From positions 2,604,001 to 2,668,000 of the forward strand of contig JAHREC010000049.1 of NCBI GenBank assembly GCA_020081605.1: a DNA stretch of 64,000 nt, written 5' to 3'. Positions 4,190 to 21,761 of the stretch are shown piece by piece. The notes beneath the pieces are model-generated. The model had not been told where the DNA came from and did not search any database. It saw only the letters and a list, made by a program, of their open reading frames with translations. The position numbers and the translations under genes were made by a program. Position 1 is the stretch's first letter, and the number at the start of each line of letters is the position of its first letter. This DNA comes from Albifimbria verrucaria. Its lineage: Eukaryota > Ascomycota > Sordariomycetes > Hypocreales > Stachybotryaceae.

Positions 4190-5562
4190 TCAAACTCCAG
4201 AAACAGTGAAGCTAAGCAAACTACCCGACGCCAGACCAAGAACAAGACAGAGGCTCATAAAGCCGCCTGCTGCCTCACGTTCGCCCTCATCCACCCACTG
4301 CCCAATGGCCATCATGCAGCTGGAGCCCAGCCATCCATTGGTAAGACCAAACAGTCCCTGAACGATGAAGAGGTAAAAGAAATCACTGTTAACTACGGCG
4401 CCTCGACCACCAATATTGCAGAGAAAGTAAAGGGGAAGAAGCCCCACGCGGGCAACAGAAAGGAGGAACAGCACCAGTGGCCGGTTCCTAGAGAGAAGGG
4501 AAGGGCCGTTGCCATCCTGCCACCGAGATCGCCCAGGTTCCAGAAGAAGAAGCCAAGAGGGATGAAGGCTTCCGGACGGAAAAGACCACCGGCGTCCGGA
4601 CGCACTGAGACGATCTTGGCGGTGAGTACGGGGAAGAACATTGTTACACTGAAGGTGACAGCAACACCAGCAGCGAGCCAGTGCAGCTTCTTGAAGAGAC
4701 GCCACAAAGATGTGACCTTGCGGGCGGCACGCTCCGCCTCCTCGATGCTGTTCATAGATTCGGCCATCTGCTCGACCATACGGTTCTCGACAATGTGATT
4801 GTGCCGCCGGACCAACGGCACAAAGGCTATGAGAGTAGCAGCAGAGACAATAACAGCAGCAAGGAAGTAGATGAAAGCAGCCGTCTGGCTCTTTCCAGTA
4901 GGTTCATCACTGCCAGACGCCTCGTCCGCGTTAGGTGGGAATATCATGACCGTGACAACTTGAGCCACAGCCGGTGACACGCCAGAGATGGCCTGGCCTA
5001 CCATGAGAGCCTGCATATACTCCGGGCGGCGGAAGCTGCCTGCAAAGGCAAAGGCGCCATTCTGGATGAGTCCCGTGGCCCAGGACGAGCAGGCAACGAC
5101 GGCGAGCAGGAAGGCGAGATAAGAGCCAGGCGAGGCGTTAAGGAAGACGGTAGTGGAGAAGGTGAGGATGGCAAACAGTCCGACGTTGACGCTGAGGGCG
5201 AGGTTGATGCGGAACGGGTACGAAGCAGCATACTGCAAGTGGGAGAGGACAAAGAGCGAGGCAAGGTTGGTGACGGTAGAGACAGTAAGGATAGCGGATT
5301 GAAAGTTGGCCTGGGCCCAGGCATCGCCGGCTAGGCGGGAGGAGAAGTAAGGTGCAGCGGCGAGGAACATGTTCCAGGCCCAGAGCATGGCAACACCGAG
5401 CAGGGTGAAGATGCCATACTCAGTCCACGAGAAGGGCACTTCGTCCTGTCCTTCGAGTACGGTGGAGCCTTCCAGCGCGGTGGGCTCCTCGGAAGCGTTC
5501 AGAGGCTCGTACTCAGACTCGGCAGGCGCCGGTTGGGCGAAGAATCTCCGTACACGATCCAT
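4190..5562 (-). CDS. Equilibrative nucleoside transporter (ENT/Fun26 family), one apparent frameshift
   Basis: This is a multi-pass membrane carrier for nucleosides; yeast Fun26 acts at the vacuole. The N-terminus is a polar tail of about 45 residues, followed by a first membrane segment with WAWNMF at residues 61-66. The C-terminal half has FWNLGDLGGR (family FNxGDxxGR) and a last block with GRGAVVNSDFFYLF and LGSSCMM, conserved in fungal ENTs. The frame breaks in the CT repeat at about 4487-4505 and continues in the neighbouring frame to the stop at 4190. One missing base would give 457 residues, the normal size. The break sits inside conserved coding sequence, and any intron using the local acceptor would be only about 36 nt, so I read it as a sequence error. 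The start at 5562 opens directly onto the conserved frame; an upstream ATG at 5640 is also in frame. Confidence 0.88.
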
Positions 5563-13050: not shown

Positions 13051-15078
13051 CTAGCCGAGGAGAATGGGTATGTTGTCTTGCGCGTGGGTATCCCACGCTT
13101 TCTGCAAGATATGACCCATGCCCCTCCGGTAAGCAACCTCACCGATCCTCTCAATCCATAGTACATTGACAATGTGGATGGCCTCGGCCCCATCCATGTT
13201 CTCCTCAAAGCGCTCCGGGTTGAATACGTAAGATCCTCTCCGCTCAGTAGCTGTAGATATCGCAATAAATTCAAGCTTCTCGTCGCCGTCGTAATTGGAA
13301 GACTGAATGCCCAGCCACCCATCATGCGCTCTGAATTCTCCAACCCACTTGTTGGTCTTGCTCCAGATGTTCCCCACGGCAATCCCTGGGTTTAGTCTGT
13401 CCTTTGGAGCCAATGTAAGAGCGAAATCAACCTCAAAATAAGCTCCCTGGGTCACAAATGAAAGGTATGGGCCCGGAAAAGCCATCTCTCCAGGCGGCGG
13501 TTCATATTCGCCAGCCTCGGGCGGGTCTTCTACAGGAACAGGGTATTTGAAGATTGCCGCATCGTCACTGTCGTGTTTGAAATGCGGTCCAGCTTTTGAC
13601 CACCCTGCAGGCAGAGCGGCACTCGAGGTTCTCCGAGAACGCAAGTCTCGGAACTGAAAGCCTGTATTAGCCACCGGTACCGTCGCCGCCCGGTCCGTCA
13701 GATGCCAGGTGACCGTCGGTTTGATCTTGAATAAATGCGTTGGCTGAAACCGCTTCGAGGCCTGCCCTCGCTTCGCGATTTTTGTGTCCTCCACATAATC
13801 AGCCGATGCTTTCCAGAGCACCAAATCAACCGGAATTCCATCGAACCACCACCCCATCCAGGACCAAGATGGGAGAAACGGAGGACGGGTAACTACTCGT
13901 CGGCGGATCGCTGCAGAGGGTCGCCAAAGCAATGCGACATCCAAAAACATGAGCGGCATCCCATAGACGAAACCTCCCGGAAAGACCTTGGACAGCATCT
14001 GTGTGACACCCGAGAAAGCCCTGAGTGTATCTTCAACAAAGGTTACGCGCCTGGAGCTGTAATCGGAGGCGATGCGCGCGTACTCGTCCAGATCAGGCCA
14101 CGGCGCATGGTGAAACCCAAAGGCACTCGACGCGATCCTGTTTGTACAAGTGTGGCGATTGCCTCGCAGCGACTTCATCACACCCGTCGGGCTCCCTGCC
14201 AGAGCTCACAGTGGCACTCCCAAGTGATGGTATCCTCGAAGAAGAAAACGGCTCTTCGGGAATACAGCAACTCTTGCATTGTCCAACCCCGTGTGTTCCA
14301 TCTAGATTGCACTAATAGATCATTGTGGTCACGGCTGGCGGGCTTCGGACCTCGTGTTGGGCGTCGCGGAGAGAGCGCCAACAGTCCAGTGTGGACATCG
14401 CCATAGGCCGCGACAATGGTGAAATATGCATTGAGTAAATAAACGGCATGCGCCGAATGTGAGTGTTGAATTCCTCCTCGTCATCCTGGACAATGCATAA
14501 TCGGTCAACCCAGAGATATCGCAGGCCCAGCTTCTTAGACAGCCACATGGCATCCAAGACAGTCTGGGAACTCCGGAATCCGGGAGGCTCAGCTGGAAAG
14601 CGTCTACATTGCTTCGAAGCAGCTGCGCCGGGGCATCCGGAGTGTTGCGCCGTGGTCCAGTACCCCAGACGTAACTGAGAGCGAGATATCTATCCGTAGG
14701 CTTCGCTCTCACGAGGATGCGCTCAACCGAATCGATGAGCCAAACTGGGCGCCAAGTCGCCGCGTCAGCCTCGTCCGCTCCACTGCAGTGGTGGTCATGT
14801 TGGCTATTGCAGGTGTCTAACCACTCTCTGATACGAGATACAGGACTCGCAGTGTTGGCAGAAGAAGCGCGCCTCTGGATGGAAGCTGTTGTGTCACTGC
14901 GCGCCTGCTTCAAGCCGCCAAACAGACGATCCGTGATGCTATTCCGCTTACTAGGCGGGTCGCGATCGCGCGGCCAACCTGTCTCAGGCATTGCTTCGTC
15001 TGGCGACTGAAGTCGCGACTGTGTCGCTGCAGAATCTTCAGGTGCTGCCGCGAAGTCGGCGCAATGGCCATCGTACAC
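13051..15078 (-). CDS. HET domain protein (heterokaryon incompatibility family), three apparent frameshifts
   Basis: HET proteins take part in non-self recognition and vegetative incompatibility in filamentous ascomycetes; the specific partner is unknown. The frame has a polar Ser/Arg-rich N-terminus of about 85 residues, then the HET core: RYLALSYVWG, a following AQLL.SN block, LGLRYLWVDRLCIVQDD, and further on SRWNTRGWTMQE and an LYSRR segment. A long C-terminal region ends at 13051. The core is split by three apparent one-base deletions at about 14563-14570, 14430-14436 and 14178-14186. With them restored the gene is 677 codons without introns. HET genes do accumulate true lesions, so a real pseudogene is possible. 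The breaks nevertheless match the one-base pattern seen in essential genes nearby. Confidence 0.85.
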
Positions 15079-15565
15079 AAACTGGCCGATCCCAGGTGGT
15101 TTAAGTGGTGCCAGACGACCAGGACATGGGACCGGCGTTGTTTATTGTGATGTGATGGCTAGGAAGGCTGCGGCCCCTCCGTCAGCCCAGCATCAGCATC
15201 CCTGATTGGCCAGCGTGAAACGCAGGCAAGATGGCAGTGTTGGTCATTTGTGTTTGATAATTGATTGTCATATGGAATTTGAAGCTCCAAACCGTCCGGT
15301 TGTGTTGTCGAGTTGTAAATACCTATAGATATAGTACAAAGAACTTATATGCGTTCAACAAGACAGCGCCCAAGTGATACATGCTTTATCCATGTATTCT
15401 ACCTAGGTGGGTTGGAGCAGGGGCTACTTAGAACAGTAAGAGATGTTTAATAGGTACCTCCTACTGAGCCAATGCAGGGGTGGGTGGGTGAAGGGGAAAA
15501 GAAAGGGCCTACCTGGCAGGTAGGCAGTGTTATGCGAAGTTTGGTAGCGAGATGCGCAAAAAAAT
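15079..15565. other. Intergenic between HET gene and tRNA
   Basis: This holds the presumed HET promoter and sequence downstream of the tRNA. It contains TAGGTACC-type motifs near 15420-15460 that recur in other promoters of the window. No ORF of note. Confidence 0.5.
15558..15564 (-). terminator. RNA polymerase III terminator (T7)
   Basis: On the minus strand a run of seven T begins two bases after the predicted 3' end of the tRNA. This is the expected position and form for a Pol III terminator. Confidence 0.85.
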
Positions 15566-15601
15566 TACGGGATGCGAGGATCGAACTCGCGACCTCACCG
15601 G

Positions 15602-15624
15602 GTTTACGATCGGTCATTGCCGAA
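15602..15624 (-). other. Canonical tRNA intron (position 37/38)
   Basis: A 23-nt segment lies directly after A37 of the tRNA-Val. It contains a small hairpin (TCGG with CCGA) and sits at the only place where the tRNA splicing endonuclease normally cuts in fungi. Removal closes a normal seven-base anticodon loop. Confidence 0.8.
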
Positions 15625-15641
15625 TGTGAACGGTGCGTGAT

Positions 15642-15693
15642 CTGAATGTTTATTAGCTCAGTTGCAGGTTGCTAGTGTTAGGTAGGAACTTAC
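15642..15693 (-). other. GT-AG, spliceosomal-type intron inside the tRNA D-loop
   Basis: Fifty-two nucleotides interrupt the D-loop between GTGGCT and ATCAC. The segment begins GTAAGT, holds GCTAAT (fungal branch consensus RCTRAY) about 12 nt before its end, and ends TTCAG. Its length matches the protein-gene introns of this window (49-58 nt in the catalase gene). Excision rebuilds a perfect AGTGGCTATCAC D arm. I see no bulge-helix-bulge that would suit the tRNA endonuclease. That the spliceosome removes it is inference. Confidence 0.7.
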
Positions 15694-15713
15694 AGCCACT
15701 ACACCAATCCCGC

Positions 15714-17285
15714 TTCTGTTGTGGTAAGTCGGGAAATTTTGAGTCCTATATTGGTGATGCAATCTTTTCCGCTTTGGTTATGGTGATTTTGCTGTGTACC
15801 TGGAATATCCCATTCCTCGAATTCCGATTGCAGGCAACATCGACTCTGTATTTTATCATTCCCGGTTGTAAGTGTTTTATCCCGCATTACACATGGATGA
15901 TATTGTGAACGAGTATCGTCATCCAAACCGCTAGTCATTGCGATCTCTTTGGGTAGGTTGGTAGCACGGAAGACACTGTTCAACAAAACACAATATTGAG
16001 GACTACAGAAGCAACCACACACAATATCCCAGGATAAACCTGTATTTAAATCGACCAACAAGTAGATCAAAGCTCTACATGAACTCCTCACCAGTAAAGC
16101 TACGCTGGTAGAATGATGCTAAACACCAAGTGACGCTTTGAATTTCCGTAGACACCACCCGAGGTATAGGGTATGTGCAGCTCATGCCACCCGCCTGTGC
16201 CATTAAGTCCGTTTGGTAATATGCAAGTCTCCATAGGTATGGGAGACGCAATGAGAAAGCTGATAAGCCAGAGAAGGAGGACTGCATATTAACCATGTCT
16301 TGGATGGATTTACGAATATTATTCGTTAAATACAAGAGAAACAATACAATATCAGCAGAAAAACGTGCGAATATACTTACACAATTCTTCGGATTATATA
16401 CGGTATCGTTCCGAATAAAATCCCGAGATTTGTCGAATTTAATTCTCATTTATCGATGCCTACAATTCCTGTTCTCAACTTCATCACAATATGGGCCTCA
16501 TACATGCAGCTTACCAAGTCCACTTTCTTCGATTCAGCTCGCATATGCACACCATGGATGCCTTAACTAATGTAAGTCCTCTATGACATGCTTGATCCCA
16601 GGAGCCATCGGGAACTAAGTTTCCTTTACATGCGGGTTTGCTTCGTATGCGCTGATCTCCGCCCACGACCAGCCAATAAGTGCATGCAGCTCCAAAACCA
16701 TGCATCAGCCCAGTGGACTGCTGCCATGGCGACTTGGTCACAGGCCCTGTCCAGGAGGCTTCGCCAGCGCGGGGTACTGCCTGCAAGCGCCCAAGCAGCG
16801 CACTCTGCCAGGAGCGAGGGGCTGCTGACAAGGTAGGTACTTTGCCGTTTTGGCCGTTTCCAGGGCAACGTCCCTCCAACATCCGACACTCTGTTTGTTT
16901 TCCCACGGCCAATCACGGCACTGCAGCTGAGTACAGCCACTGCTTCCTTAAACACCAGGCCGGCACCGAAACGGCCCTCCTCTCGACTATTCTCCTTGAC
17001 AGGCACATCGCTGCTATCTTTGTTTAGTTCAGCGACGCTCTCCTTGCGAGCCGAGCCGCCGTCTGCCCTTCTCTTCTTTCGTCATCCGTTATTGAAATTG
17101 CAGTGTCTTATTGTTTTTGGATTACAAGATCCAAAGTGCCCAACTCGCCTCGCCTGTCTCTTGGTTGCGCCGTCGCCAGACTAGTGACATTCCATCGCTT
17201 CATTTCCCTGCTACACCTTGAGTCGCGTGCCGATGAGTGCCCGGCTGGCATAATACCTATCCATCAACTCCAGCGCCCGCTCAGC
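15714..17285. other. Intergenic upstream of BUD4
   Basis: No supportable gene. Sequence around 16290-16460 is AT-rich. ORFs of up to 133 codons at 16075-16912 overlap on both strands and lack motifs. The last several hundred bases are pyrimidine-rich and probably form the BUD4 promoter and leader. Confidence 0.5.
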
Positions 17286-20200: not shown

Positions 20201-21761
20201 CTCACCCGTCAAGAAGGATCGACCTCAGTCGTGGACCGTAGAGCCGTGGAATCCGCAGCCGAGACAGCGCAGCATTCGGAAGCGCCCAGTGGGCGGACCT
20301 GTTCCGCCTTTGCCTGGCCACGAGAGCAACGCTACTGCCCTTAACCAGGTGGTTGAAGAGGATATCAGTGCTGAAATTGCTACTCCTGATAGTGGTGAGA
20401 GGGGCCGTCTCTTTGTCAAGGTTATGGGTGTCAAGGACCTCGATCTGCCGATTCCCAAGAGTAAGTGATAATCCATTCATTCTGCAGTATCTGGGCCTCG
20501 CTGACAGTAAACAGACGAGCGTAGCTGGTTCAGCCTGACTCTCGACAACGGTGTACACTGCGTAACTACGGCTTGGTTAGAGCTAGCACGCAATGCACCA
20601 ATCGGTCAAGAATTCGAGCTCGTGGTACCCAACGACTTGGAGTTCCAGCTCACACTCAACGTCAAGATGGAGAAGCCCCTCCTGTGCGGTTACCGGCATC
20701 TACTGCTAAGGTGAGCAAGCCAAAGACATCCACCTTCAGCCGGCTCCTTGCGTCACCCAAGAAGCGCAAGGAGATGGAGTTGCGCCAGAAGGAGGAAGAG
20801 GAGCGCTTCGTTCAGCAGCAGAAGGATGCTTTGGCACGACAACGCAAGGCAGCGCCTACCGCGTACGACCTCTTCTCCCCGCTCGCAGCCGAGGACGGCA
20901 GCTTCGCTCGTGCGTATGTCTGCCTGAAGGAGCACGAGAGCCGCTGCTTCGGCCGACCTTACATGACCGAGGTTGCATGCTTCAACGAGTGGGCCACTGA
21001 AGAAGCCAGCTTTGCATCAAGCGTGAAGAGCAAGCGTGGAAACACTGCGGTGGTGAGACGTGCTCCTTACCACATCGGCAAGCTCGAGTTGCAGCTGCTG
21101 TTCGTTCCACGCCCGAAGAACGCAACAGATGACGACATGCCCAAGAGCATGAACTCGTGCATCCGAGAGCTAAAGGCTGCTGAGGAGAGACTCGCCCGCA
21201 TGTGGGAGGGCCACCTGAGCCAGCAGGGCGGAGATTGCCCAGTAAGTAAACCCTTCTGAATAAACGAGTTGCTTCAATGCTAACAAATGGCCTTAGTACT
21301 GGCGCCGCCGATACTTCAAGCTGGTGGGTACCAAGTTGACTGCCTATCATGAGGCTACCCGTCAACCCCGAGCTACCATTAATCTCTCGAACTGCAAACG
21401 GCTGATCGATGACCGTCGGGCATTGACGGAGAAGGAGACGACCGGTAAGGGTGGCAAACGTCGCCGGTCTGCCTTTGCAGAGGAGGAAGAGGGGTACATG
21501 TTTGTTGAGGAGGGATTCCGCATCCGCTTCAACAACGGAGAGGTGATTGACTTCTACGCCGACACAGCCGAAGACAAGGAAGGCTGGATGAAGGTGCTCT
21601 CCGAGATCATCGGCCGTGGCGATAGCGGTAGCGACGACGAGAGCAGCGGTCCTCGATCAAGAGCCAAGTGGTGCGAGCTCGTTCTGAAGTCAGAGGAGCA
21701 GCTTCGTCGCCGCGCAGAGGGCCGCCGGGTTCACTCACGAACTAAGAGCATGTACATGTAA
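17286..21761 (+). CDS. BUD4: Bud4-type septin/axial landmark protein with C-terminal PH domain, six apparent frameshifts
   Basis: Bud4 is an anillin-like scaffold that marks septation sites and binds septins at the cell cortex. Exons: 17286-17300, 17361-17501, 17554-20008, 20112-20460, 20515-21241 and 21297-21761. The N-terminal two thirds are disordered, Ser/Pro/Asp/Glu-rich and full of short motifs (NRRSSIERLQ, HAKSVTFD). Then come an anillin-homology-like block (RGRLFVKVMGVKDLDLPIPK onward), a basic coiled stretch rich in K/E/Q, and a PH domain starting YWRRRYFKLVG and ending near GWMKVLSEII. Five one-base deletions cluster at 18185-18580 and one lies at 20674-20682. Restoring all six makes the exon sum exactly 1386 codons, the usual size in filamentous fungi. 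Introns have clear donors, acceptors and a TGCTAAC branch site. Confidence 0.88.

Follow-up and report, generated by a model that had tools for sequence, protein, structure and literature searches.

How is a tRNA made from a gene whose D-loop is interrupted by what looks like an mRNA intron? In textbooks, tRNA splicing is independent of the spliceosome. In the window (the whole 64,000-nt stretch of DNA analysed here, C36:2604001-2668000), a tRNA-Val(CAC) gene carries two inserts, one at the canonical tRNA intron site and one in the D-loop with the signals of a pre-mRNA intron. Its parts are as follows.

15566-15713, minus strand: tRNA-Val(CAC) gene with two inserts, 148-nt precursor and 73-nt mature form (direct reading, and ARAGORN on the spliced form)
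15694-15713, minus strand: exon 1, 20 nt, comprising the acceptor 5' strand and the D-arm to position 20a, with the A box inside (assigned by eye; identical in the second copy)
15642-15693, minus strand: spliceosomal-type insert of 52 nt in the D-loop (20a/21), GTAAGT...GCTAAT...TTCAG (direct reading)
15688-15693, minus strand: 5' splice-site motif GTAAGT, which is GTACGT in the second copy (direct reading)
15652-15656, minus strand: branch-point motif CTAAT, 10 nt from the 3' end of the insert (motif position)
15642-15644, minus strand: 3' splice-site motif CAG (direct reading)
15625-15641, minus strand: exon 2, 17 nt, comprising the D-stem 3' strand, the anticodon stem 5' strand, the anticodon CAC and A37 (ARAGORN on the spliced form)
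15602-15624, minus strand: canonical-site tRNA intron of 23 nt at 37/38, which is 22 nt in the second copy (ARAGORN)
15566-15601, minus strand: exon 3, 36 nt, comprising the anticodon stem 3' strand, the T-arm with the B box, the acceptor 3' strand and A73 (direct reading)
15558-15564, minus strand: T7 run, a Pol III-type terminator, separated from exon 3 by one A (direct reading)
15741-15754, minus strand: TATA-like element CCAATATAGGACTC, 41-28 nt upstream of the gene (presumed role)

Direct reading and ARAGORN confirmed the layout given in a preliminary description of the locus: the D-loop holds a GT-AG insert of 52 nt, and an intron of 23 nt lies at 37/38. When both inserts were spliced out by script, ARAGORN called the 73-nt product tRNA-Val(CAC); with the D-loop insert alone removed, it gave the same name and placed a 23-nt intron at 37/38. 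The unspliced gene yielded a false tRNA-Arg when introns were allowed. No tRNA was reported in the window by ARAGORN at default settings or by Rfam at the gathering score, and positions 14500-16800 had no Rfam match at E ≤ 1. The terminator and the two promoter boxes were also as first described: the A box lies upstream of the D-loop insert and the B box downstream, which leaves the Pol III internal promoter, as read from the sequence, intact except for its spacing. 'Flawless', the word first used for the spliced 73-nt tRNA, was slightly too strong, as the D-stem has T-T as its fourth pair and the first acceptor pair is G-U. Folding leaves the ends of the Val inserts ambiguous, with 24-27 deletions yielding a cloverleaf in a scan; in the window copy, one non-GT-AG deletion scored 31 versus 29. 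The D-loop insert lies at 20a/21, and not at the canonical position for introns cut by the tRNA endonuclease (TSEN), 37/38. It has the GTRNGT-like 5' context, YAG end, CTRAY distance and length of a U2-type intron.

With the whole 148 nt as query, a search of the genome (48.4 Mb, 41 contigs) returned one other locus, C22:938762-938911 (L002). The exons of the two Val genes are identical at 73 of 73 bases, and both insert sites are common to both. The D-loop insert of the second gene is 55 nt long, starts with GTACGT and ends with ACAG (GTAAGT and TCAG in the window gene), with CTAAC 9 nt from its end; its 37/38 intron is 22 nt long and retains a hairpin, TTCGG/CCGAA as against TCGG/CCGA in the window copy. 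At full length, the two D-loop inserts aligned better than nearly all shuffles (2 of 2,000 aligned as well), whereas once 9 bases at the start and 4 at the end were left out their similarity was at chance level (1,116 of 2,000 shuffles at least equal). Identical exons, a diverged insert interior and retained splice signals together argue for selection on the spliced product. The flanks of the two genes are unrelated except for a TATA-like stretch (CCAATATAGGACTC in the window, CCAATATGGACTCC in the second gene), which lies about 10 nt further upstream in the second gene; a stretch like CCAATATAGGACTC also occurs upstream of a tRNA-Met gene (L009). Directly downstream of the second gene there is only a T4 run, with a T7 run some 40 nt beyond.

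We searched the genome by pattern for an uninterrupted Val(CAC) gene. The D-arm pattern GTGTAGTGGNTATCAC, with up to two mismatches, had 93 matches (76 in the control), none of them exact and one with a single mismatch; ARAGORN identified no Val tRNA in the 30 that were fetched, among them the one-mismatch locus. The recurrent two-mismatch form of this pattern is tRNA-Glu(CTC). A 28-nt pattern from the 3' half (exon 3), with up to three mismatches, matched only the two split Val genes in the genome. An intron-less Val anticodon-loop pattern had 29 matches (47 in the control), of which 12 were one identical string that occurs in a Val(AAC) gene, and the sole CAC-like match contained no tRNA according to ARAGORN. 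Using Val(AAC) as a query gave 13 matches at 97-100% identity and no others, and no Val(TAC) gene was identified with the Val patterns. None of these pattern searches thus revealed an uninterrupted CAC gene, although a CAC gene that has diverged and carries an intron of its own could be missed. Split-D-loop scans of the genome returned 15 and 9 rows, and a tRNA was present at the match (by ARAGORN or on splicing by script) only for the two Val genes; one of the chance rows (at L089) has a split Ser gene, described below, about 0.4 kb away. The count of other tRNA-Val(CAC) genes proposed at the outset therefore stands at one found by these searches of the genome, split in the same way. GTG makes up 36 of the 144 valine codons in six long ORFs of the window.

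Inserts of the same kind were present in other tRNA genes. In the fetched DNA, 132 candidate GT...CTRAY...AG segments near a B box were spliced and the products tested as tRNAs. Besides Val, three genes emerged, all interrupted at 26/27: a tandem pair of tRNA-Ile(AAT) genes on C4 and a tRNA-Ser(TGA) gene on C41. A similarity search with the Ser gene added a second Ser copy. The additional loci are as follows.

C4, about 889.5-890.8 kb, minus strand: tandem tRNA-Ile(AAT) pair (L006) with 54- and 55-nt GT-AG inserts at 26/27, adjoined by an uninterrupted paralogue
C41:4368336-4368511, minus strand: tRNA-Ser(TGA) copy 1 (L089), with a GT-AG insert at 26/27 and a canonical-site intron
C10:1531640-1531960: tRNA-Ser(TGA) copy 2 (L106), split at 26/27 and with a canonical-site intron

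The uninterrupted Ile(AAT) paralogue, about 1 kb from the split pair, supplies an empty site (GAGCG/TCGTA) that sets the Ile junction to within one base, the residual ambiguity being a G. The uninterrupted and split Ile bodies differ solely at the 5-68 pair (U-G versus G-U). The wider Ile family comprises eight further stretches of 75-82 bases at 80-82% identity, and the one member read (L107) appears by eye to be an uninterrupted Ile(AAT). The 5' site of Ser copy 1, GTTGGT, is weak; copy 2 has a 61-nt insert (GTAAGC...CACTAAC...TCAG) and a canonical-site intron of 55 nt. Differences between the acceptor stems of the two Ser genes are paired, and each spliced form was called tRNA-Ser(TGA); other GT-AG deletions, one in copy 1 and two longer ones in copy 2, also gave a tRNA call (Leu). 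No uninterrupted Ser(TGA) gene was found with the Ser gene as query, which would miss some serine tRNAs, possibly including a diverged copy. The inserts of both Ser genes share AGTCACAAGTTCGA, which resembles a B box. A pattern for inserts at 26/27 had 22 matches versus 48 in the control; 3 were split tRNAs, and the other 19 held no tRNA with a CTRAY-bearing GT-AG insert. All six split tRNA genes were absent from the 63 matches of a genome-wide Rfam tRNA search, and ARAGORN with introns allowed misnamed the five that were run (both Val genes, both Ile genes and Ser copy 1) as Arg, Cys, Trp or Leu.

All six inserts start with GT, end with CAG, carry CTAAY 9-14 nt from the end and are 50-61 nt long. 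We compared them with shuffles of their own composition, scoring GT[A/G/T]NGT, CTRAY 7-15 nt from the end and YAG, classes that were chosen post hoc and widened for the two Ser copies. Per 1,000,000 shuffles, all signals were kept in 3 for the window Val insert, 0 for the second Val insert, 0 and 1 for the first and second Ile inserts and 5 for Ser copy 1; for Ser copy 2, 3 per 500,000 passed with a slightly looser 5' class. The GTAAGT, GCTAAT and CAG named in the preliminary description are therefore a combination that chance would rarely produce, within the limits of classes set after the fact. A separate cloverleaf scan of the fetched DNA allowed one insert of 30-90 nt at positions 8 to 27 and made no GT-AG requirement. 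It returned 26 ordinary sites and a further 11 that correspond to five distinct genes needing an insert (loci overlap, and sites were not deduplicated), and all five admit GT-AG; the sixth gene, Ser copy 2, came by similarity. The Val loci were part of the scanned DNA owing to the Val finding, while the Ile genes and Ser copy 1 were incidental.

We asked whether the inserts share an origin. Among the ten pairs formed by five of the inserts, interior likeness was seen only between the two Ile inserts (10 of 500 shuffles) and between the second Val insert and Ser copy 1 (2 of 500), and the two Ser inserts are clear homologues (0 of 2,000 shuffles). A mobile intron family was rejected, as the interiors are mostly unlike each other. 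A sequencing artefact was likewise rejected, with six inserted genes spread over five contigs (C36, C22, two on C4, C41 and C10). Two pattern searches of IMG/VR returned no match; the one pattern match in GTDB contigs, on a contig named Coriobacteriia, was taken as chance.

The signals are those of mRNA introns in the same DNA, as first noted. Joining open frames in the window gave 16 candidate mRNA introns versus 3 in the reversed sequence, 44-120 nt long and with the same signals as the tRNA inserts (for example, 55 nt at 21242-21296); the list is impure, as two candidates overlap and one, 4910-5001, lies within a gene that is intron-free in relatives. In 317 kb of fetched DNA, GTANGT...CTRAY...YAG occurred 30 times in the 50-59-nt bin, four of these being the tRNA inserts, versus 13 times in the reversed control; over all lengths, the same motif occurred 163 times versus 230. 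Branch-to-AG distances in this set, which includes the four tRNA inserts, peak at 9-13 nt. The short T runs of the inserts (at most 2) were rejected as proof of Pol III transcription, being weak evidence, because T4 is likewise missing from 11 of the 15 mRNA-like introns listed (15 of the 16 window candidates were used; one overlapping row was dropped). The nucleoside-transporter gene of the window offered no introns usable for comparison. At about 4483-4486 (minus strand), homology within this gene shifts frame where the proteins of relatives are uninterrupted, reflecting a sequencing error or a real break. The window's WD-repeat protein is 87% identical to a Paramyrothecium foliicola protein, with the next named matches in Hypocreales, and the transporter, at 84% identity, gives the same taxonomic picture.

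The U6 snRNA gene of this genome is also interrupted. The only U6 match above the Rfam cut-off among 7 genome matches at E ≤ 10 was at C22:312500-312770 (L095). It fits the consensus well from ACAGAGAAG onward and poorly in its 5' part, and AACGATACAG, the consensus stretch expected just before ACAGAGAAG, was found 75 nt further upstream. The intervening segment is as follows.

C22:312639-312713, minus strand: U6 intron of 75 nt, GTTAGT...TACTGAC...ACAG, inside the ACAGAG box at ACAG/AGAAG

Within this intron, GGGTTCGAATTC resembles a B box by eye, and a stricter B-box expression did not match it; TTATAT lies upstream of the gene. No intron-less U6 was found among the Rfam matches, where it would presumably have scored higher. 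That a gene of the Pol III class in this genome has an intron of the mRNA type fits spliceosomal excision of the tRNA inserts.

From these features we conclude that the D-loop insert of this nuclear tRNA gene is very probably a genuine U2-type spliceosomal intron. This reading draws on the fact that every one of the six inserts has GT, branch-point and AG signals, a stronger argument than the absence of a strict bulge-helix-bulge at the Val insert. A relaxed tRNA splicing endonuclease might nevertheless cut the D-loop and 26/27 inserts, as reported for Cyanidioschyzon and nucleomorphs, with GT-AG being due to chance or inheritance, a possibility we regard as unlikely. Non-canonical tRNA introns outside 37/38 are known in algae and nucleomorphs (PMC4090602, PMC3978253), and in both Ile copies and Ser copy 1 the four bases past the 5' bulge can pair with exon 2 (4/4, including G-U). 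However, the central helix of the Val D-loop insert has only 1 of 4 pairs in both copies and the inner helix 0-1 of 3; in the Ile genes and Ser copy 1, the inner helix has 0-1 of 3 pairs and the outer 2-3 of 4. A strict bulge-helix-bulge intron (3-nt bulges, a 4-bp helix and flanking helices) was thus rejected for Val and incomplete for Ile and Ser copy 1. This absence is weak evidence, since the canonical 37/38 Val introns, taken as a control, also fall short of the strict form (2/4, 2/4, 1/3). The endonuclease has no requirement for the GT, CTAAY and CAG that all six inserts carry.

Two further explanations dispense with productive splicing of a Pol III transcript. Were the split genes pseudogenes, the inserts would never be removed; single eukaryotic tRNA family members with short insertions in the D- or T-arm have been supposed to be pseudogenes (PMC4090602), and the Ile pair adjoins an intact paralogue in a family with the eight further stretches described above, of which the one read looks uninterrupted. 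Yet both CAC genes found are split, the pattern searches found no intact one, and all 73 Val exon bases have stayed the same in two genes while the insert interior diverged; the compensated Ser acceptor stems and the G-U to U-G swap in Ile point the same way, making decay very unlikely. A single dead copy was rejected by the second Val gene and the CAC census: intact single-intron CAC copies, which the preliminary description would have taken as the mark of a dead gene, were not what we found, the sole other CAC gene that came up having the same double-intron layout, identical exons and retained signals. Alternatively, the spliced product could derive from a Pol II read-through transcript, with the tRNA body a by-product of an mRNA or lncRNA. 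The normal substrates of the spliceosome are Pol II transcripts, which speaks for such an origin. Against it, both copies have an A box, a B box, a TATA-like stretch and a following T run (T7 in the window, T4 in the other copy) amid otherwise unrelated flanks, the only ORFs on the Val strand that overlap the gene ends are of 56 and 130 aa, and the U6 gene of this genome, which belongs to the Pol III class, itself has an mRNA-type intron. We consider a Pol II origin very unlikely.

The spliceosomal reading is thus preferred, and the window insert is one of at least six tRNA inserts of this kind, accompanied by a similar intron in U6. We infer from the sequence that these inserts are excised; the proposal that the spliceosome does so, made when only the window gene was in view, gained support from five further inserted tRNA genes and the intron-bearing U6. 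On the best reading, the spliceosome would remove the tRNA inserts and the tRNA endonuclease the 37/38 introns. Transcription of the Val gene by Pol III would rely on its B box and on its A box, which lies wholly ahead of the insert, and the spliceosome would remove the 52-nt intron in the nucleus. The D-arm and elbow would be restored, the precursor would become a substrate of the tRNA endonuclease, and that enzyme would then cut out the 23-nt intron at 37/38. This presumed order follows from the human enzyme, which recognizes the mature tRNA body and whose TSEN34 subunit senses the D- and T-loops (PMC10539383), and on that basis the insert in the D-loop would be expected to leave first; the initial expectation that such an insert would hinder the endonuclease agrees with this. 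Folding carries little information on the order, as the energy model fails to return a cloverleaf for the Val tRNA even after splicing. GUG decoding by tRNA-Val(CAC) would then depend on the spliceosome. More broadly, we think it likely that the spliceosome is obligatory for tRNA maturation here: every Val(CAC) and Ser(TGA) gene found would be matured by the spliceosome and then the endonuclease, and part of Ile(AAT) by the spliceosome alone, while the dependence of GUG decoding would be joined by a feedback loop closed through the split U6.

Should the inserts be spliceosomal, a single Pol III transcript would pass through two splicing systems in turn, and translation of particular codons would be tied to spliceosome capacity. 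Short D-arm insertions in eukaryotic tRNA genes presumed to be pseudogenes (PMC4090602) would also deserve re-examination, and the split genes would allow the question of whether splicing by the spliceosome requires coupling to Pol II to be tested directly in a small and well-known RNA. Annotation may conceal further genes of this kind, given that Rfam omits all six and ARAGORN misnames the five run.

In a 2026 review, tRNA splicing is described as a process in which the spliceosome has no part (PMC13149111). The claim that no such case was known held for tRNA: the literature searched, with subscription papers mostly outside reach, did not report any tRNA gene with a spliceosomal intron. Precedents from U6, rDNA and algal or nucleomorph tRNAs nevertheless belong beside it, the U6 intron of fission yeast and the rDNA introns of lichen fungi coming closest. 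Introns of Cyanidioschyzon merolae and nucleomorph tRNA genes resemble the Val case in lying in the D-loop or elsewhere outside 37/38, sometimes beside a canonical intron (PMC4090602, PMC3978253). They differ in that C. merolae introns are described with bulge-helix-bulge motifs, Guillardia nucleomorph inserts are given as 3-24 nt long and both are linked to the tRNA endonuclease; neither GT-AG nor a branch point features in the descriptions cited (PMC4090602, PMC3978253). Among canonical eukaryotic introns at 37/38, the 23-nt Val intron is one and the 52-nt insert is not. The rDNA of lichen fungi, like the Val gene, has spliceosomal introns in a structured non-coding RNA made by a polymerase other than Pol II in ascomycetes, and yeast splices such introns from Pol I transcripts; unlike the Val gene, the host is a Pol I rRNA and the organisms are lichen fungi (PMC8527467). 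The U6 snRNA gene of S. pombe has an mRNA-type intron (PMC8917221), as does the U6 of the genome studied here, but its host RNA is part of the spliceosome rather than a tRNA, and it does not undergo a second splicing by the tRNA endonuclease.
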